Shown: piece after piece, positions 8,866 to 23,335 of the stretch
How the letters are laid out: every line of letters starts with the position of its first letter
How positions within the stretch are numbered: the first letter of the stretch is position 1
DNA from: a virus
Reading direction: 5' to 3' (one strand)
Length of the DNA stretch: 23,335 nt
Virus record (IMG/VR): IMGVR_UViG_3300003629_000019
Coordinates: 1-23,335 of that record
Position numbers and translations under genes: made by a program
Notes under the pieces: generated by a model
Databases searched by the model: none
The model's input: only the letters and a program-made list of their open reading frames with translations
Told to the model about the DNA's origin: nothing

Positions 8866-10074
8866 CTATGCACTACTTACAGCCTCCCAAGCAGAGCCTG
8901 TGTAAAAATTCAACTTTCCAGTGGTTGAATTAAAAATCAACAACCCTGCTTCTGGAGAAGATATCGCATCACGGCCAGTGGTCGAGTAGCTTGGAAGGAT
9001 TAACCTAGCACTTGCGTCAAGCGTAGTAAAAGCACCTGTTCCGGGGGACGATGTACCAATGTTTACGTTGGTAATGTCGCCGCCATTAAAGTTCACATCA
9101 CCCGAGGCGTTGGCTGTAACGGTTTTAGAGGCCTGGACAGAACCAAGAGACGTGATGTCGTTGTAGTTCAACTCGGTTGCAGTAGCTGTGATTGTTGTCC
9201 CAGCAATACTAAGCGTAGAAAAGTTTCCCGTTCCTGCGGTTGTTGCGCCGATGTTTACGGCATCAATCGTACCGCTGTTGATATCGACATTGGTGAGATC
9301 AAAGTTGTTGAAGTCGATGCCAAAAGAATCAGTGGTAACAACCTTATTTGCCTGAACCTGCCCCAAGCTACTGATGTCATTGTAGTTCAACTCAGTCGCG
9401 GTCGCAGTAACTGTGGTGCCTGCGAGTTGAAAGGTTGTAGTAATGTTTGCGGACGTAATACTTGCAGAAGTAATGTTTGCAGTTGCAACAGTAGCTGTTC
9501 CCGTAACACCCAGATCAGTAAAGTCACCCGTGCTTGCGGAAGAAGCCCCGACTGGAGTCCCGTCGATCGCACCACTATTAATATCGACATTCGTCATCGG
9601 AGCGTTTGCAAAATCAATTGCTTTTGCTGCACCAGCCGTCACCGTTTTGTTGGCTTCGACAGTTCCAAGAGTTGTGATGTCGTTGTAATTCAGCTCCGTG
9701 GCAGAGGCTGTCACCTCCACAGCGTCAATGTTGAACGTGTTGTTTACGTTGAGTGTGCCGTCGATGTCAGCTGTTCCGCCAGTCGAAACCGTAAAGTTTG
9801 TTGTGACCTCAAGATTTGGAACAACAAAAGTCCCTGGAGTTCCCCCGGTCCCTACGCGCAAAATAGTGCTGTCTACCCAAACCGTTCCGTCTTCCAAATC
9901 CACAGGAGTAGTGGGAATGTCGGTCATTACGGTTTTTGTAGCACGGCCTTCACCAGGATTTTGGTACTGCTCCAAATACACAGCAAAAGACTGCACAAGG
10001 GAGTCCATGTACTGTCGGCTGTATTCGTCCGGGGCGAGCGGGAATATCGGCTTGGCGAGATTGCGCGAACTCAT
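8866..10074 (-). CDS. Tail fibre protein with ELNYNDI repeats (402 aa)
   Basis: Starts at ATG 10074, overlapping the previous stop by one base (TGATG). The N-terminus (MSSRNLAKPIFPLAPDEYSR, about residues 1-55) probably attaches to the virion. The rest is Thr/Ser/Asn/Ala-rich beta sequence with three copies of TELNYNDI (126-133, 227-234, 300-307), each followed by a 'SLG.VQA.K.VT' strand, plus 'TNVDINSG.ID' and 'G.TTAGTGNFSTL' units. Such repeats are typical of marine phage tail fibres. The C-terminus (SPEAGLLIFNSTTGKLNFY, then GSAWEAV) matches a common fibre-tip ending. The role is host recognition as a trimeric fibre (inferred). A related ELN repeat occurs in the other fibre at 15002-15985. 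Confidence 0.82.
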   Translation of the reverse strand: MSSRNLAKPIFPLAPDEYSRQYMDSLVQSFAVYLEQYQNPGEGRATKTVMTDIPTTPVDLEDGTVWVDSTILRVGTGGTPGTFVVPNLEVTTNFTVSTGGTADIDGTLNVNNTFNIDAVEVTASATELNYNDITTLGTVEANKTVTAGAAKAIDFANAPMTNVDINSGAIDGTPVGASSASTGDFTDLGVTGTATVATANITSASITSANITTTFQLAGTTVTATATELNYNDISSLGQVQANKVVTTDSFGIDFNNFDLTNVDINSGTIDAVNIGATTAGTGNFSTLSIAGTTITATATELNYNDITSLGSVQASKTVTANASGDVNFNGGDITNVNIGTSSPGTGAFTTLDASARLILPSYSTTGRDAISSPEAGLLIFNSTTGKLNFYTGSAWEAVSSA

Positions 10075-12131
10075 CAGCGCCTCCCGTCAGGACGAATGTC
10101 AATCGTCGGGCTACCAAGCCTCCAGGTCACACCAATTTCATCAGACTCCAAGCGGAACCGCATGCTCCTGCCACGAAGACGCATGTAAACCTGCTCGGTA
10201 AACTGCTCCACAGGAGACGTGTTGGTCTGAGTAACTGTCTTTGAGTTAGACTGAACGATGCCGCTACCCATTGCGTTTTGCATCTTCACTGTCATCGAAA
10301 CGGACGGAGAGTCCGCTGTAGAGTTGTCTAGCGACAGATCAGGCAAAACCCTAGAAACAAACATGAAGTTGTTTCCGTCAGCAATATCGATCGGGCTGGA
10401 CTCGATGTAGCTGTTCATGGCTGCGCCATCCGCATCGATGCCAACCTCGTGCTCGTACAGATAGTTGTCAGCCGAAGCGATCGGATTTGGATCCACACCA
10501 CGGTCAATCCATGCTGTCCGCCCCAACTCTCCATAATACCAAACACCTTCGGAGTAGTTATAAACTACATACCGATCGTTTTCCTGGCTGTTTGCCGAAG
10601 GATAGAACCAAAACACTTCAGAAAATGCGGAGTTTACACCAGCAAAGATCTTTGCACGTTGGTTTTGATTGAGGTCGCTAAACACGTAATCACGAACAGT
10701 GCATGGGAGTTTTTCCACACGGCCCGTGAACACATAGAAGTTTGCGATGCCCATCCAATACACCATGTCGTTTACAGCTACAGCCGCATTCGGACCTTGG
10801 ATCGTGGTGTTATAGGCAAGCTCCTGTAGACCAAATGTAAACGGAGGTCCAAGATACTGCATTGCATGCAGCGATGCATCAGTGAAGATCAAGATCTGTT
10901 GGCGGGTTTCAACCGCCGTTACGATCTCGGAACCAGAACCAATGCGCAATTCACCCGCTGTGGTGGTCGCCGTAGTTTCCCACTCGGTCAGTGATTCTTG
11001 GTCCGAGAACCGAATGAGCAACGGGTCTTGTGTCCCGATACTATTTTCTCCATCACAACCAAACGCAATCACGTGGCGATCTTGGTCAGACACAAGAACC
11101 TGCTTTGCGATAGTAGGCGCAAGATTAGAGCCTGAAAGAGAGGAAAGCTCTACCATTCTATTTGGAGAGCGCACGTTGGGAGAGTCACTTCTGTCCCAGT
11201 AATAAATGCTGCCGTCTCGAATACAGGCAATCAAGTCTTCCCCGAAATTGTCTTGAGACCAAATGCGGAGGTTCGCACCTGCGACCGCAATGTCTGTGCC
11301 AGAGCCCCACGTTCCACGGCTCCAGGTTCCTGCACCCCAACCGTTGCCGTAGATCGCAGCATCTGGACCAGGGTTGATTTCGTAAGCTCCAACAACGGAC
11401 GCACCGCCATTACCTGTATCAGAAGCGTTTGGAAACACTGACAGAACAATAAAGTAAGAGTCCGTGTCTGGTACGGAAGAAACTTCATACTCTGCGTTCA
11501 GAACCGTGTCCGTTACAGTCCCTCCTAACGAAACCGCCCCAGAGAACGTAACAAACGCACCAGCTTCCGCTCCGTGAAGAGTGTCGCTGACCAATAGCGA
11601 AGAACAAAACACTGCAGTCGTGGAGGTGTGCGTTGCTGCTGTGGTTGAATTATAGCCGCGTTGGCACTGCTGCAGAGTGTTGCCAAGAACACCAGAGTAC
11701 AGAATTTCTTCAGAGTCTATCTTGATGACACCCGAAGCGGGAAATCCTGACGCATCAGCAAGCGTGATCGTTACGTCGTCAGCGCCGATGTTGCCAGAAA
11801 GTGTCGAGTCCACCACGGAGAACGTAACGTCTCCTGCCGATGTCGTGACGCGAATAGGTGTGATATTATAGTATGCCTCACCATAACGGTAGTAGTACCG
11901 CCGGTTTGTACCAACGGACAAAAGCCGCTCCCCTTGGAGCGTCACCCAGGAGATCATCCCACGACAGGACCCTAGAAAAGTGGAGTTGTTTAGCTTTTGC
12001 CAACCGCCAAGCTTTTCTGGAAACCCCAACCGGAATCTTACGAGGTTCCCGTCACGCCAGCCACCTTCGTTGGTGTAGGCGGTGACCTCTCGATTGATGC
12101 CGGGTCTAAATTGCAGCTTAGAAAGCGGCAT
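10074..12131 (-). CDS. Large tail structural protein (685 aa), possible tail tube/nozzle component
   Basis: The start at 12131 has AAGGAG about 11 nt upstream. It begins MPLSKLQFRPGINREVTAYT, then EGGWRDGNLVRFRLGFPEK and LGGWQK. This opening is very common in marine phage genomes (recalled), where the protein is annotated as a virion structural or stabilisation protein. The length (685 aa) and beta-rich composition suit a tail tube or nozzle protein of the T7 gp12 or P22 gp10 type, but homology to these is not shown. A short Trp/Gly motif, GWGAGTWSRGTWGSG (encoded at about 11304-11343), also appears at the N-terminus of the repeat protein at 16048-17205. The middle region (DRHVIAFGCDG, LRIGSGSEIVTAVET) looks beta-propeller-like. 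Confidence 0.7.
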   Translation of the reverse strand: MPLSKLQFRPGINREVTAYTNEGGWRDGNLVRFRLGFPEKLGGWQKLNNSTFLGSCRGMISWVTLQGERLLSVGTNRRYYYRYGEAYYNITPIRVTTSAGDVTFSVVDSTLSGNIGADDVTITLADASGFPASGVIKIDSEEILYSGVLGNTLQQCQRGYNSTTAATHTSTTAVFCSSLLVSDTLHGAEAGAFVTFSGAVSLGGTVTDTVLNAEYEVSSVPDTDSYFIVLSVFPNASDTGNGGASVVGAYEINPGPDAAIYGNGWGAGTWSRGTWGSGTDIAVAGANLRIWSQDNFGEDLIACIRDGSIYYWDRSDSPNVRSPNRMVELSSLSGSNLAPTIAKQVLVSDQDRHVIAFGCDGENSIGTQDPLLIRFSDQESLTEWETTATTTAGELRIGSGSEIVTAVETRQQILIFTDASLHAMQYLGPPFTFGLQELAYNTTIQGPNAAVAVNDMVYWMGIANFYVFTGRVEKLPCTVRDYVFSDLNQNQRAKIFAGVNSAFSEVFWFYPSANSQENDRYVVYNYSEGVWYYGELGRTAWIDRGVDPNPIASADNYLYEHEVGIDADGAAMNSYIESSPIDIADGNNFMFVSRVLPDLSLDNSTADSPSVSMTVKMQNAMGSGIVQSNSKTVTQTNTSPVEQFTEQVYMRLRGRSMRFRLESDEIGVTWRLGSPTIDIRPDGRR

Positions 12132-12891: not shown

Positions 12892-13878
12892 TCATCTCTC
12901 CGTTTTAAAAAGCCTTTTAAGGGCTGTGTTAGCAATGTCTCGGGGCAAGTCCCCCCAACACGCTGTTTCTATGGGACTGTTTTTAGGTGGGGTAGTGATA
13001 GAGCAAGCATTTATGGCCGCTCCATATGCAAAAGGAGCATTCCCAATCTGAAGGGAAACGTGTGCAAGATGAGTCCAGGCCTCTCTGCATGATGGGTCAG
13101 AGGCAACTGCGAACAAAAAAGATCTAATCATTTCGTTTTTATTTTTCATCTCAAAGAAGCATTGAGCAACGGAAAGCCACGCATACGCTGATTTTATACG
13201 GTTTTCAGGGTTTTCAGTTTTTTCAAGAAGCTCAATTGCCTTTTTATACTCAGATATAGCCTCTTCAAAAAGACCTTTTTGTTGATGCTCAAAGGCGAGC
13301 TGCGTCCACGCAGAAAAATTGGTCGGGTCATTTTCTAAAATTTTCAAAAGCAGAGGCTCATAGTCTCTTTGTTTACCGTTTTGATGATGCTCCATGCGGA
13401 CACTGGTATCAAAATACTTTGCGGAGGAAGGTGTTACTGGAGCTAAAAGTTCGTGCACGGCGTTCTTCCAGACACAAGAGTGTCGTGCGTGAATGCGGAA
13501 TCTTTTAGACAAGATAGATGGAATTGTCTTTTCAGAATCTGCCCACTCATCAACAAACTCGCAGCTTCCAAGATCTCCGTCAAAATCTTCCTTTAGGCAA
13601 TCTAACCAACCGCACACTAAACGCTCATCCAAGTCCATACTAACGCACACATCAACATCTTTTGGAACAAGAGAAAGAGCCTTGTTTCGTGCGTCGTCAA
13701 ACCGCCAGGGTTCTATCTTTTCTTGATGAACAATTGCGCCGCCGGCTTTTAAAAGCTCAACGGTTTTGTCCGTAGAACCTGTGTCCAAAACATACACTGG
13801 GCAATCTCCAATAGATTGCAGAAAACAATCTACGTTTTCTGCTTCGTTTTTAGAGATTGCATAAACGGCTATTTTCAT
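12892..13878 (-). CDS. Family 2-type glycosyltransferase with TPR-like C-terminus (328 aa)
   Basis: The N-terminal 150 residues show the GT-A fold pattern of family 2 glycosyltransferases: a first strand with ISKNEAEN (8-15), VLDTGSTDKTVEL (30-42) for nucleotide-sugar binding, DDARNKAL (61-68), and MDLDE (81-85) supplying the D-x-D metal site. Residues 170-290 are helical repeats (NFSAWTQLAFEHQQKG, EAISEYKKAIELLE, SAYAWLSVAQCFFEM, REAWTHLAHVSLQIG) typical of TPR units. GT2-TPR fusions are known for proteins that glycosylate proteins or cell-surface sugars. The gene overlaps the propeller gene by ATGA (13875-13878). Targets could be the phage fibres or propeller, or host surface glycans; this is inference. 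The DNA looks clearly more AT-rich than most of the window, which suggests acquisition. Confidence 0.88.
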   Translation of the reverse strand: MKIAVYAISKNEAENVDCFLQSIGDCPVYVLDTGSTDKTVELLKAGGAIVHQEKIEPWRFDDARNKALSLVPKDVDVCVSMDLDERLVCGWLDCLKEDFDGDLGSCEFVDEWADSEKTIPSILSKRFRIHARHSCVWKNAVHELLAPVTPSSAKYFDTSVRMEHHQNGKQRDYEPLLLKILENDPTNFSAWTQLAFEHQQKGLFEEAISEYKKAIELLEKTENPENRIKSAYAWLSVAQCFFEMKNKNEMIRSFLFAVASDPSCREAWTHLAHVSLQIGNAPFAYGAAINACSITTPPKNSPIETACWGDLPRDIANTALKRLFKTER

Positions 13879-15005
13879 GCGCCCAAGCCGGGATAAACAC
13901 TGAAAGAAAGAGCTTGACCCGTCCGTAGATTGTTTAAATTGTAAGAGCTCGAAAAACTCAATGAGCCTGGGGTCGTATGATCCAAAAGAATTAGATCATC
14001 GTTTCTGTTTTCTCCGACGGCTAGATAGTCACCCGTAGGACTAAACTTTACAGCTGCTCCATCTGGAGTTGCGTAACTTGTAGCAAAACTCACGGAACCT
14101 GGGGTTGTATGGTCTAAAAGAGTGACGCCACTAGTTGCAGCATTAAACCCGACTGCGATATAGTTTCCGTCTGGAGAAAAATCTACGCTGTTTATAGCGT
14201 CTGGAAAAGTATATGTGTCGGCTAAACTTAGAGAACCAGCCGTCGTATGGTCTAAAAGAGTAAACGTAGCACTGGCTGTTCCAGAGTTGTACCCTGAACC
14301 GACTGCGATATAGTTTCCGTCTGGAGAAAAAGCTACAGTGTAAACTTCATTAGAATTGCCAACGGCCGCTGTGTAGCTGTCCGCAAAACTTAAAGACCCA
14401 GAGCTGTGAGAAACCAGCGTAACATTTGGTCCCCCACTGTTGGTGTTGAAATAACCAACCACTAAATATGAGTCGTCGCTATTCCAATCGAGATAGGTAG
14501 CATAAGAGTTAGCGCCCCCAAGAGCATAGGAAGTTACACTGCTAAGGCTTCCTCCGGAAGGACTTAGAAGCGTAAGCTCACTAGCAGCTTGGCTGCCAAC
14601 GGCGATGTAATTATTGTCATTACTAAACTTACAAGCATAAGCAGAAACGTTACTGTTTCCACTCACACTGTATGTGTCGAGCCCCGAAAGAGATCCAGCA
14701 GTAGAGTGGTCTAAAAGGTGGGTGTTAAAATATTCACCCCCTACTGTGCCCCAGCTAGAAGCAACCGCCAAATAGTCGCTGTAATCACCAACGGAATTAA
14801 AAGAAACAGAATATCCGCTTCGGTCATCTCGTAGCAAATAACCCACAGCTAAAGTCAAAGACGATGGGTCTGTGTTGTCAAAAACCTGTACACCCCATTG
14901 ATTTCCGTCAGTGGTTTTGTCCACCGCAACAGCAAGATATCCGCCGGCACTACCACCGCCGGCACCTGCCGCTGCTGCTTCAACTTTCTTAGAAATAGTG
15001 CTCAT
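13875..15005 (-). CDS. Seven-repeat beta-propeller protein in the tail-fibre block (376 aa)
   Basis: The start chosen is ATG 15005, which overlaps the fibre stop (ATGA) and has AGGGGA 8 nt upstream; an upstream in-frame start would lie inside the fibre gene. After a 22-residue Ala/Gly-rich N-terminus, the Y-(I/L)-x-VG-like core strand recurs seven times, at residues 23, 78, 133, 180, 232, 282 and 327, every 45-55 residues. It is often preceded by F-S-P-D-G and followed by 'LLDHTT.GSLSFA.SY'. The first unit lacks its leading strand, while the C-terminus ends in an extra strand (ALSFSVYPGLGA), as expected if the ring is closed by combining both ends. This is the WD40/lactonase-like pattern. No enzyme residues are evident. 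Its context suggests a receptor-binding or fibre-tip protein (inference). Confidence 0.75.
   Translation of the reverse strand: MSTISKKVEAAAAGAGGGSAGGYLAVAVDKTTDGNQWGVQVFDNTDPSSLTLAVGYLLRDDRSGYSVSFNSVGDYSDYLAVASSWGTVGGEYFNTHLLDHSTAGSLSGLDTYSVSGNSNVSAYACKFSNDNNYIAVGSQAASELTLLSPSGGSLSSVTSYALGGANSYATYLDWNSDDSYLVVGYFNTNSGGPNVTLVSHSSGSLSFADSYTAAVGNSNEVYTVAFSPDGNYIAVGSGYNSGTASATFTLLDHTTAGSLSLADTYTFPDAINSVDFSPDGNYIAVGFNAATSGVTLLDHTTPGSVSFATSYATPDGAAVKFSPTGDYLAVGENRNDDLILLDHTTPGSLSFSSSYNLNNLRTGQALSFSVYPGLGA
14149..14331 (-). repeat. 33-bp exact direct repeat between two propeller blades
   Basis: The same 33 bases occur at 14149-14181 and 14299-14331, 150 bp (50 codons) apart, covering the FSPDGNYIAVG core of blades 5 and 6. 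Identity at the DNA level in adjacent blades suggests recent duplication or gene conversion. Confidence 0.85.
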
Positions 15006-15985
15006 GCCAAAGCATCCCCTGCTTGGAACCCATACCAATTTGTACCACCATCAGTGGTCAAAAAGACAAATACGTCTGTTTCACCTGACGCAGGAGCATC
15101 AGGAGCAGTTCCGCCCGCCCAGTCCACGGATGCTGGCCATGTCAGTGTATGAGTCCCACCAGCCGTGACTCGAAGGGTAAAAGCATAAGAGTCGTCTGTC
15201 GTAAGTTGAACACCAGCATAGCTAAAGGTAAAGGTGGTGTTGCCACTAGTGGTAAGAGTGAAAGTGTTGCCTTCGTCGCAGTCTACAGTAGGCGAGGTCC
15301 CAGAAAGTGCAACAACAGTTTCAAGATAGCAAACAGCTTGAACTTCTTCCGTAAGTTTAATGTTTCCGTTTGCATCCGCTGTAACAGCTTTACTTGCCTG
15401 AGAAGTCCCCAAGGTCGTAATGTCAAGATAATTGACCTCTGCTGTTGTGACCGTAGCTCCGTCAAGGATATTCAACTCAGCCGCTGTAGCAGTCAGCCCG
15501 AGATTCGTAAGGGCAGTTGCTGCGTTGGCCAAATCAGAGAGATTGTTTGCGGCAGTCAGAAGACCTGAGAGGTCCGCAGTAAGACTTACGACATTTGCAC
15601 CCGCACCGCCGCCGTCACAGTACACAATGTCTGTGCCGCCATCGGGGATCGTAACTGTGGTCCCCGAACCCTGACTGATGATGACGCTTTGACCAGAATC
15701 GTTTTTGATAAAGTATAGTTTGTCCGCGTCGTTTGGGGACACGGTCACTGTGTTGGTGCCGCTTGGCGTACCGCCAAAAACTAGAACTTTATACTGACCG
15801 TCCGAAAGGCTGCCATCTGAAGTCGTTAGCGTATGTGTCGTTCCAGACAGCGTGATTGCACCAACACCGTTCGTGAGGCGGTCAATGATCTGGAGGTTTG
15901 TGTTGGTGGTTTGCCCCCACGTGCCCGACTGTTCGCCGTCTGCAATGAGCTCGATGCCACCATTTGCCGTGTAGGTACTAGCCAT
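15002..15985 (-). CDS. Tail fibre protein (327 aa)
   Basis: Begins MASTYTANGGIELIADGEQS, with GTWGQTTNTNLQIIDRL, an N-terminal pattern common in marine phage fibres (recalled). The middle has TAAELNILDGATVTTAEVNY, then LDITTLGTSQASKAVTAD, a variant of the ELNYNDI repeats of the second fibre. The C-terminal ~100 residues (TLRVTAGGTHTLTWPASVDW, then VFVFLTTDGGTNWYGFQAG) match a widespread fibre-tip ending. The ribosome binding site is weak (GGGAAA). It is the first gene after a 62-bp gap with a good promoter, and is followed by the propeller gene with an ATGA overlap. The likely role is host-surface binding. Confidence 0.82.
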   Translation of the reverse strand: MASTYTANGGIELIADGEQSGTWGQTTNTNLQIIDRLTNGVGAITLSGTTHTLTTSDGSLSDGQYKVLVFGGTPSGTNTVTVSPNDADKLYFIKNDSGQSVIISQGSGTTVTIPDGGTDIVYCDGGGAGANVVSLTADLSGLLTAANNLSDLANAATALTNLGLTATAAELNILDGATVTTAEVNYLDITTLGTSQASKAVTADANGNIKLTEEVQAVCYLETVVALSGTSPTVDCDEGNTFTLTTSGNTTFTFSYAGVQLTTDDSYAFTLRVTAGGTHTLTWPASVDWAGGTAPDAPASGETDVFVFLTTDGGTNWYGFQAGDALA

Positions 15986-16014
15986 TTCGGTTTCCCGTCT
16001 TTAAATTCGACCCA

Positions 16015-16043
16015 ACTATACGTTCTTTTTCAGAACAACTCAA
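16015..16043 (-). promoter_or_regulatory. Sigma70-type promoter upstream of the fibre/propeller/glycosyltransferase block
   Basis: On the minus strand, TTGAGT (16043-16038) and TATAGT (16020-16015) are separated by exactly 17 bp. The -10 matches 5 of 6 consensus bases and the -35 matches 4 of 6. Transcription would start near 16008, about 22 bp before the fibre ATG. The spacer includes a small GTTCT/AGAAC inverted repeat (16022-16036) that could be an operator or chance. Its place in a 62-bp gap between otherwise packed genes supports it. Confidence 0.55.
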
Positions 16044-16047
16044 TCCG

Positions 16048-17205
16048 TTATGCCGCAATCTCAGTCCAAGTGACCGCTGCAGCAGGGACAATCTTGCCCC
16101 AGACTACGACTGTGTTCAGTTCCATTGTAGCCTCAAGGCCCGTCAACGCCACATCTGAGCTACCCGTCACAGTGACGGACCCAAGGGCGGAGGTCGCCGC
16201 AACGCCAGTCACAGGAACCAAAGCCTGCGGGTCAACGGTTACATTACCAAGCGCAGAAGTTCCCGACACTCCAGTCACTGAAAGCGTGGAAGTTCCGGTG
16301 ATTCCTACATCGCCGACCTCAGCAGTTGCTGCAACCCCCGTTACAGGAACAAGAGCTTGCGGGTCAACGGTTACGCTGCCTAGAGCACTGGTAGCCTCCA
16401 CCCCCGTTACAGGAACAAGAGCTTGCGGGTCAACGGTTACGCTGCCTAAAGAGCTTGTGGCCTCTACTCCTGTAATAACAACAACTAGCGCACTGCTTTG
16501 TGTCACCTGGCCGACAGCACTCGTGCCCTCTACGCCAGTAAGATCGACAAAACCAGTACCTGTTATAGCTGCATCACCAACAGCGCCAGTGCCCTCTACG
16601 CCGGTGACAGCAACACCAACATTCGGAACCACAACACTGCCGAGAGCTGTTGTGCCCTCTACGCCGGTGACAGTGACGATATTCGCACTACTTTGTGTTA
16701 CCTGGCCGAGAGCACTCGTGCCCTCTACGCCAGTGGTACTAACAAGAGCGGTGCCGGTGATTGTCGGATCACCAACCGCACCAGTGCCTTCTACGCCGGT
16801 CAGAGATACTACAGCCGTACCAACAACCGTTTCGTCTCCAAGGGCTGTGGTTCCCTCGACGCCTGTGGGGACAACAACCGCTGTGCCCGTGACCGTTTCG
16901 TCGCCAAGGGCTGTGGTTCCCTCGACGCCTGTGGGGCTTACAAGAGCTTGCGGGATTACCGTTACGCTTCCAACTGCGCCTGTCGCAGAGACCCCAGTCG
17001 GAGATACTACAGCCGTACCAACAACCGTTACGCTTCCAACTGCGCCTGTCGCAGAGACCCCAGTCGGCGACACTACCGCCTGCGGAACAACCGTTACGCT
17101 TCCAACTGCACTCGTTCCAGAAAGCCCCGTTACCACAACCGGTAACGGGGTTCCCCATGCACCTTCACTCCAAGTGCCTCGGCCCCAACCTGAGATTACA
17201 GCCAT
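16048..17205 (-). CDS. Virion-associated protein of ~sixteen 22-residue beta repeats (385 aa)
   Basis: The ATG at 17205 has GGAGG 8 nt upstream. The N-terminus is MAVISGWGRGTWSEGAWG, a Trp/Gly motif shared with the large tail protein at 10074-12131. Residues 26-354 are fifteen tandem units of 22 residues (one of 21), with consensus TGV(E/S)(G/A)T(S/T/G)A(L/V)G.VTV..QA.V.., followed by a degenerate sixteenth unit and a C-terminus ending VTWTEIAA. Every unit should form short beta strands, giving a long rod or solenoid. Copies are very similar at the DNA level. I infer a tail spike, fibre or surface decoration rod; no enzyme motif is seen. The repeat leaves other frames open on both strands, which I treat as shadows. 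Confidence 0.72.
   Translation of the reverse strand: MAVISGWGRGTWSEGAWGTPLPVVVTGLSGTSAVGSVTVVPQAVVSPTGVSATGAVGSVTVVGTAVVSPTGVSATGAVGSVTVIPQALVSPTGVEGTTALGDETVTGTAVVVPTGVEGTTALGDETVVGTAVVSLTGVEGTGAVGDPTITGTALVSTTGVEGTSALGQVTQSSANIVTVTGVEGTTALGSVVVPNVGVAVTGVEGTGAVGDAAITGTGFVDLTGVEGTSAVGQVTQSSALVVVITGVEATSSLGSVTVDPQALVPVTGVEATSALGSVTVDPQALVPVTGVAATAEVGDVGITGTSTLSVTGVSGTSALGNVTVDPQALVPVTGVAATSALGSVTVTGSSDVALTGLEATMELNTVVVWGKIVPAAAVTWTEIAA
16144..17130 (-). repeat. Tandem 66-bp repeat array (15 units) inside the repeat protein gene
   Basis: Fifteen 66-bp units (one of 63 bp) encode the 22-residue repeats. Some neighbours are identical over long stretches: 49 bp at 16334-16382 and 16400-16448, and 44 bp at 16958-17001 and 17024-17067, each pair offset by exactly 66 bp. 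This suggests recent duplication or homogenisation. Confidence 0.92.
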
Positions 17206-17226
17206 AGCTGGGCCCTCCGGTTAGAG

Positions 17227-17673
17227 TTACGCGATGCGAATAATGGCGTTAGATGCGTCCGCCGTTGGGAACTGAATTGTGAATGTCCCAGATGTAGAGC
17301 TCTTGTCCTCACCAAAGTCGAGAACCGCAACAGCATTCGTAGTGCCAGTGCCGCTACCTGCAGTGGTGTTGTAAATCAAAGCACCGCGAGCAGTAATCGT
17401 TGCCGAAGTAAACGAAATGTCGTCGAAATCGGTGAACGCTGTGGTGCTCGAAGTGGTTGGCGTGACATTCGTCAATGTGCCGCCACCTGCGGAGTACGAA
17501 CCGGAATTACCCACTTCGTTGGTGGTTGTGTAATCCGTCGTTGCTGCGCCAAGTGTTGCACTGCTTGTGTATAACGCCAGCTTGAAGGTGTCCCCTGTCG
17601 AAGCAGTGAAGTCATGCTGAGCCTGCAGCAATTCCTGCTTGAAGGATGTGCAAAGGGCCTGAGAGATAGCCAT
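17227..17673 (-). CDS. Virion structural protein, tail-associated type (148 aa)
   Basis: The start at ATG 17673 (MAISQALCTSFKQELLQAQH) lies 1 nt after the preceding stop and has AGGAG 7 nt upstream. This is preferred over an in-frame start 12 codons earlier, which would overlap the upstream gene without a ribosome binding site. The sequence is Thr/Ser/Ala-rich and beta-stranded, with FKLALYTSSATLGAATTDYT, an Asp/Phe patch (TAFTDFDDISF), RGALIYN and the end FTIQFPTADASNAIIRIA. The whole pattern is familiar from many marine phage contigs (recalled), where it is annotated only as structural or hypothetical. It may be a minor tail or head-closure protein. Confidence 0.72.
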   Translation of the reverse strand: MAISQALCTSFKQELLQAQHDFTASTGDTFKLALYTSSATLGAATTDYTTTNEVGNSGSYSAGGGTLTNVTPTTSSTTAFTDFDDISFTSATITARGALIYNTTAGSGTGTTNAVAVLDFGEDKSSTSGTFTIQFPTADASNAIIRIA

Positions 17674-17674
17674 G

Positions 17675-17965
17675 TCAAAGTCTCCTGATTTGGTCGGCCA
17701 GGTCAGCAAACCCTGCCTCGCGAAGTTTTTGCCCGACCGAAATACGGTCTTGCTCTATACCCATTGTAATGTAATGCTCGACAATTCTCAACAACTCTTG
17801 CTGAAAGGCTCGAGCTTGATCTCGAATCTCTTTCGGAGCGTTATCAGAGACACTGATCATGCGGTCCACACAAAACTGGGCGATTTCTGCTGGGGTATGT
17901 CCACGATTGTTTGTCGTATGAACCTTGAACGCCCCAGGGGGAATCTCTGTTACCATGCCTTGCAT
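17675..17965 (-). CDS. Small helical hypothetical protein in the head-tail block (96 aa)
   Basis: The ATG at 17965 follows AAAGGAGT with a 7-nt spacer; a second ATG three codons later is possible. The product contains NNRGHTPAEIAQFCVDRMIS, APKEIRDQARAFQQEL and a final LREAGFADLADQIRRL. It is all-helical, soluble and close to a small protein often seen beside tail genes in marine phages (recalled). Function is unknown. Its position between an adaptor-like gene and a structural gene suggests a head-tail assembly or scaffold role. Confidence 0.65.
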   Translation of the reverse strand: MQGMVTEIPPGAFKVHTTNNRGHTPAEIAQFCVDRMISVSDNAPKEIRDQARAFQQELLRIVEHYITMGIEQDRISVGQKLREAGFADLADQIRRL

Positions 17966-22966: not shown

Positions 22967-23335
22967 TTAGGCTGCGCCAGGCGAACCGAATACAGCGCGA
23001 GGATCGGAGAAACCGAAGCTGTAACGCTCACGCGCCTTGAAGCGCATGTTGCCGGTGTCGAAGTCGGCTTCCATGTTCGTCGAGAGCGGTGTGCGCTCGA
23101 AGTGGATGAAGCCGCGAGGCGCGTCCGTCTTGATGAAGAATGCATCAGGGTCGGTCAAGAAGTCGTTGACCGCGTACCCGTCAGGCAGCATGCCCATCGA
23201 ACGGATTGCGTTCACGTCGTTGTCTGCAGTGCCGACGCGGAGGTTGGAAACCATCAGACGCTCAGCTACGAACTGCAGCTGGCGAGGAACGATGAGCTTC
23301 ATGCCGCGAAGAGCAACTTTCAAACCACGCTCGTC
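22967..23335 (-). CDS. Major capsid protein, C-terminal part (5' end outside window)
   Basis: The frame is open from the right edge to TAA 22969-22967 (122 residues visible, starting DERGLKVALRGMK). No start codon in the window is taken as real; the frame continues beyond the edge. The visible part holds GMKLIVPRQLQFVAERLMVS, then PDGYAVNDFLTDPDAFFIKT, FERTPLSTNMEADFDTGN and RERYSFGFSDPRAVFGSPGA. The pattern of 'KL.VP..L...A..L..S', 'F.T.D.P.G...F.R' and a final 'R.RYSFG..DPR...GS' is typical of HK97-fold major capsid proteins of this marine phage type (recalled). It would build the icosahedral head. The terminator right after it fits a very highly expressed gene. Confidence 0.8.
   Translation of the reverse strand, partial: DERGLKVALRGMKLIVPRQLQFVAERLMVSNLRVGTADNDVNAIRSMGMLPDGYAVNDFLTDPDAFFIKTDAPRGFIHFERTPLSTNMEADFDTGNMRFKARERYSFGFSDPRAVFGSPGAA

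Follow-up and report, generated by a model that had tools for sequence, protein, structure and literature searches.

We analysed the virus record IMGVR_UViG_3300003629_000019 at its full length of 23,335 bases (the window referred to below) and found that it encodes a protein of tandem 22-residue units, which we read, with a probability of about 0.6, as a beta-solenoid-like structural part of the tail-fibre (host-recognition) module of a short-tailed marine phage. On the best reading, this predicted rod is a scaffold on which reach and glycan binding can evolve.

The rod gene is the longest open reading frame on its strand. Its product contains 16 units anchored by TG[V/L], of which fifteen are full and one merges with the C-terminal cap (unit table). 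The gene and its parts are as follows.

16048..17205 (-): gene for the repeat rod, 385 aa and stop codon
17152..17190 (-): tryptophan motif GWGRGTWSEGAWG at the N-terminus (residues 6-18), with residues invariant in relatives
16144..17130 (-): units 1-15, which fill this interval exactly, 22 residues each save unit 8 (unit table, TRF)
16606-16668 (-): unit 8, 21 residues instead of 22 (unit table)
16078..16143 (-): unit 16, degenerate, joining the C-terminal cap (unit table)
16048..16110 (-): C-terminal cap VVVWGKIVPAAAVTWTEIAA (residues 366-385) plus stop, an ending that recurs in relatives

A previous sequence-only reading had described fifteen 22-residue units with a 66-bp period at 16144-17130. 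The period and the coordinates were correct, with a sixteenth, degenerate unit to be added, and the unit length applies to fourteen of units 1-15, the exception being unit 8. At the N-terminus, residues G6, W7, R9, W12 and W17 were invariant in 31 of 31 aligned relatives, making the tryptophan motif a putative anchor or cap. At the other end, V366 and W369 were nearly invariant in the alignment of the 31 relatives, and the ending VWGxIxPxxxxxW...IAA recurs in relatives. A stretch similar to the N-terminal motif, GWGAGTWSRGTWG, lies at 11274-11345 (-) within the predicted tail hub (10074-12131). DSL-LC04 and CRP-902 have this motif in their hubs as well, and it was not found in those of HTVC023P or ctjtQ328; the motif common to rod and hub could be a shared docking element. 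On the opposite strand, an open reading frame of 463 aa (15833-17224, +) was rejected as a gene because its layout reflects the 66-bp period and its hits are the repeat matching itself. This period and codon use keep the frame open.

The protein was 50% identical to itself at a shift of 22 residues, compared with ~8-18% at other short shifts. In the DNA, exact runs of 49 bp (16400-16448 = 16334-16382) and 44 bp (17024-17067 = 16958-17001) were found at 66-bp offset, as the sequence-only reading had claimed, and TRF flagged both sites; among 300 synonymous reshuffles of the gene the longest run was 26 bp with either codon usage. Adjacent units shared 59.5% DNA identity versus 52.3% in shuffled order (p = 0.00075). 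Three groups of related units were distinguished.

16958..17109 (-): units 1-3, with the 44-bp exact run at 66-bp offset
16474..16800 (-): units 6-10, old block duplication at three-unit offset (identity matrix)
16334..16464 (-): units 11-12, with the 49-bp exact run at 66-bp offset

Units 6-7 were 71% and 80% identical in DNA to units 9-10 (identity matrix), and the region carries a 24-bp run at 195-bp offset. This likeness is an old block duplication; together with the likeness of neighbouring units, it indicates array growth by both single-unit and multi-unit duplication. Units 11 and 12 differ at 8 bases, 7 of the 8 differences being synonymous, which points to protein constraint since that duplication. 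The description of the copies as homogenised suits only units 1-2-3, 4-5 and 11-12 and the block 6-7/9-10, since most units are well diverged, the closest pair being 88% identical. Expansion and contraction had also been called ongoing. Whole-unit differences between relatives, described below, agree with this, but no such ongoing change is evident in the window itself: the best pair is only 88% identical, and L005, its sole near copy, has an array that is identical base for base, within 13.2 kb without substitution. L005 lacks stretches of 11, 25 and 19 bp near window positions 22981, 17716 and 16049, each at or near a gene end; these may be either true losses or artefacts of assembly or sequencing.

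The rod family is common among marine viral contigs, with 505 loci confirmed in one scan. One scan for relatives yielded 227 related loci, of which the best 80 were kept. Among 221 distinct loci, 1901 of 2105 steps from unit to unit were 22 residues long, and the unit number of complete rod proteins was 5-32. Identity of relatives to the window protein was 38-52% over the whole length, caps included. Pfam, PHROG and PDB sequence searches with the rod protein gave no family match, and PHROG searches with 31 relatives gave two marginal matches, in one relative each, both to families of unknown function. A GenBank phage DNA search with the window returned no match, and no description of the family was found in the open-licence papers searched. 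Despite its abundance, the family lacks an entry in Pfam and PHROG, and it appears to be undescribed in these libraries and papers. A scan of GTDB genomes found one rod locus, L314, in a Rhodobacteraceae MAG. It lies on a phage-like 13-kb contig (WTIQ01000105.1) with the rod-fibre gene order of the window, which hints at a Rhodobacteraceae host.

We modelled the window rod protein and an 8-unit relative as monomers with AlphaFold2. Both models were all-beta and periodic, with solenoid-type repeats, in line with the beta rod that had been predicted from the sequence; pLDDT was 70.0 for the window protein and lower, 61.5, for the relative, with caps below 50. Foldseek found nothing significant in the PDB (E above 0.1) and two matches at E <= 0.001 among viral models, both uncharacterised proteins of uncultured phages. 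With VIA-align, the window model aligned to beta-solenoids, best to CsgA, a subunit of curli (Z 25.2, rmsd 8.8, 294 residues), and the model of the relative aligned to the secretion domain of FHA (Z 13.3, rmsd 2.9, 169 residues). CsgA, a beta-solenoid with repeats of ~22 residues, resembles the rod in repeat length; in contrast, the rod is a phage protein without a curlin Pfam match. The models suggest that the protein is likely to be a solenoid with about one coil per unit.

The sequence-only reading had also suggested that the rod could set the length of a spike or fibre, and the gene does lie within a tail-fibre cassette, where it adjoins known fibre genes. Its neighbours include the following.

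17227..17709 (-): upstream neighbour of the phrog_644 family, 160 aa (PHROG match)
15002..15985 (-): downstream neighbour, tail-fibre-like, with N-terminal GEQSGTWGQTTNTNL motif (PHROG tail fiber matches)
10074-12131 (-): tail hub, a large homologue of the 'stabilization' protein known from short-tailed phages

Further neighbours in the window are a glycosyltransferase-like protein, a WD40 protein and other tail-fibre-like proteins. A phrog_644-like gene was found upstream of the rod in 85 of 89 loci identified via the rod itself, and the GEQSGTWGQTTNTNL motif downstream in all 84 testable rod-seeded loci (84/84), against a background of 1.6% and 0.15%, respectively, in random stretches of the same loci. 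Homologues of phrog_644 are present in the pelagiphages HTVC023P and HTVC027P, the roseophages CRP-901/902 and others, and the gene that follows is annotated as tail fibre in the cultured relatives CRP-902, CRP-603 and ct7L0027. We read the source phage as short-tailed and marine, related to HTVC023P/HTVC027P and CRP-901/902.

Two named phages carry members of the rod family, with tryptophan motifs and 22-residue-type units, directly after the phrog_644 homologue as in the window. WJZ48131.1 of DSL-LC04, a hypothetical protein, is 36.6% identical to the window rod; gp68 of HTVC027P (QGZ17849.1), whose units are degenerate, has low identity and was identified by gene position only. Both contain more tryptophan motifs inside the rod than the window protein does. 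In HTVC023P a different protein occupies the rod slot, suggesting that the rod is one among several alternatives at this position, and alternative proteins were likewise found in the slot in 80 phrog_644-seeded loci.

The interior of the rod can change while its surroundings stay the same. L022 and L040 were 99.7% identical over 3.2 kb upstream and ~95% identical at the gene end, with an interior of ~65% identity. L018 and L020 were 100% identical over 1500 bp upstream and shared the gene's first 509 bases, after which they diverged. The pattern in both pairs indicates recombinational replacement of the interior, not one-unit slippage. L020 also differed downstream of the rod from L016, which is of the L018 type (76% identity over 173 bp), and crossovers within the array may be a way in which the fibre genes that follow it are exchanged. 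The most likely cause of the array changes is homologous recombination, both among the repeats and between co-infecting phages.

In some relatives, one unit's loop holds a Laminin_G_3 domain (PF13385, a concanavalin-like lectin). The window rod protein has no Laminin_G_3 or other Pfam domain, whereas L050, L028, L035 and L246 score 60-71 bits for PF13385 (curated cut-off 27.6). In all four, the insert starts after residue 5 or 6 of the unit, in the loop that reaches to about residue 10, and beyond it the second half of the unit resumes. In two clades, near-identical phages differ in the presence of the lectin. Flanks of L243 and of L246-L248 are 99.5-100% identical, and the insert is absent from L243; in L246, unit 8 carries it in its loop as one clean in-frame insertion of 633 bp (Laminin_G_3, E = 2e-19), with 99.6% and 98.8% identity to L243 on either side and flanks 99.6-100% identical. 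Among L243-L248, the lectin is absent in two metagenomes and present in at least four. In the other clade, L050 has the lectin (Pfam E = 2.7e-16) and L081/L082 lack it. Unit number does not change with the lectin state (11 each in L243 and L246, 8 each in L050 and L082). Neither these insertions nor the replacement of whole interiors had been noticed in the sequence-only reading.

Between L028, L035 and L050, the inserted domain has 84-86% DNA identity, compared with 64-76% in the flanking 600 bp, which fits a lectin cassette that moves horizontally; tighter constraint on the domain may also play a part. A domain search gave 123 loci. From the best 80 of these, 61 were classified, and 25 had three or more clear 22-residue units, which puts the cassette in at least 25 rods; most other lectin loci listed had similar starting motifs and one or two clear units. 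In marine metaviromic islands, tail fibres and carbohydrate-binding and lectin-like proteins are reported to be the most variable identifiable genes (PMC3909814), in line with the mode of action proposed below.

From these data we propose how the rod would work. Each 22-residue unit would form approximately one coil of a beta-solenoid, and the caps would fix the rod on the tail or within an oligomer. Unit number would set the reach, at ~0.5 nm per coil and hence ~8 nm for the window rod if each unit is one coil, and the rod surface, exposed turns or plugged-in lectins would contact glycans on the host surface. More specifically, any unit would accept a horizontally mobile lectin cassette in the turn that follows its residue 5/6, and blocks of units would be duplicated, deleted or swapped; we hold the odds of this plug-in arrangement to be about even. 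If it is true, reach and glycan specificity could be changed independently of each other.

The rod might instead be a virion appendage or decoration, such as a collar whisker or a head or tail decoration, that has no specific host recognition and whose changes are the neutral drift of a recombining repeat. Such a part would be expected to tolerate neutral turnover of units, unit number is constant in many clades, and no receptor-binding fold was detected in the window protein. We nevertheless regard this explanation as unlikely, given the very tight slot between phrog_644 and the fibre genes, lectin inserts that share one loop position across at least four backgrounds, and interiors that differ beside 99.7% identical flanks, as expected of host-recognition genes.

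We also compared array lengths between relatives, in the 44 pairs whose flanks are at least 95% identical on both sides; the array variants come from assembled metagenome contigs, in which repeats can be misjoined or collapsed. Length was equal, without gaps, in 29 of the 44 close pairs, and given the many clades of constant unit number, any tuning of length would not be frequent everywhere. L178 and L180 differed by 330 bp (five units) and were 100% identical in the rest; collapse in the L180 assembly is possible because L178 has two identical five-unit blocks. L205 and L216 differed by 198 bp (three units), with further rearrangement. Copy number, proposed earlier as a point to compare across relatives, thus does vary. 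That unit number alone determines the length of a spike or fibre, so that the rod is purely a ruler, would agree with the range of 5-32 units and with close pairs that are off by exactly three and five. We judge it improbable, since the number is the same in 29 of 44 close pairs and several cases change unit identity or the inserted domain with unit number little altered.

Collapsed or chimeric repeats are a very improbable source of the copy numbers and variants as a whole. The data are all assembled metagenome contigs and the blocks of L178 could be collapsed in L180, but the units of the window are distinct (best pair 88%), the separate record L005 has the same array, and each lectin state of L243-L248 recurs in several metagenomes. 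A phase-variable (on/off) surface structure, also raised by the sequence-only reading, is scarcely credible: the tandem repeats are intragenic and frames are interrupted in L021 and L026, but the 66-bp unit is a multiple of three, so that adding or removing units leaves the frame unchanged, the array changes between relatives are of whole units or whole codons, the break in L021 is a compensating +1/-1 bp pair 12 bases apart and most likely an assembly error, and that in L026 is one 47-bp deletion in a single case.

Variable repeat shafts, mosaic tail fibres or spikes (PMC10684548) and BACON arrays (PMC6949934) are known kinds of structure with which the proposed host-recognition rod can be compared. 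It resembles fibres and spikes with exchangeable parts (PMC10684548, PMC3909814) in its fibre-cassette position, its fixed ends with a variable repeat interior, its lectin-type domains and its variation between near-identical phages. In contrast, no sequence match to any described fibre family was detectable, and the variable part is the 22-residue array with a lectin in a unit loop, whereas mosaic fibres swap the C-terminal tip. The BACON arrays of crAss-like phages are likewise tail-associated tandem arrays with suggested host or glycan binding and grow through duplication or single-domain transfer (PMC6949934). Their units are full domains, whereas the rod unit has 22 residues and belongs to no Pfam family, BACON included. 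The unusual part of the rod is a lectin plugged into the loop of a short repeat and gained or lost between near-identical phages. Natural close pairs that differ only in unit number, interior or lectin offer a direct test of the retuning of host binding, which in phages has otherwise been studied mostly in culturable models.

Other genes of the window also contain repeats. The fibre-like genes at 8866-10074 (-) and 15002-15985 (-) both carry repeats of the type TATELN(Y/I)...DITTLGxxQASKTVTAD, and exchange of repeat units between the two is possible. The gene at 13875-15038 (-) encodes a beta-propeller protein of the WD40 type (Pfam WD40, E = 7.2e-14), which is unusual in a phage structural module, and contains a 38-bp near-repeat at a spacing of ~150 bp. 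Adjoining it, 12892-13878 encodes a glycosyltransferase-like protein with TPR repeats.
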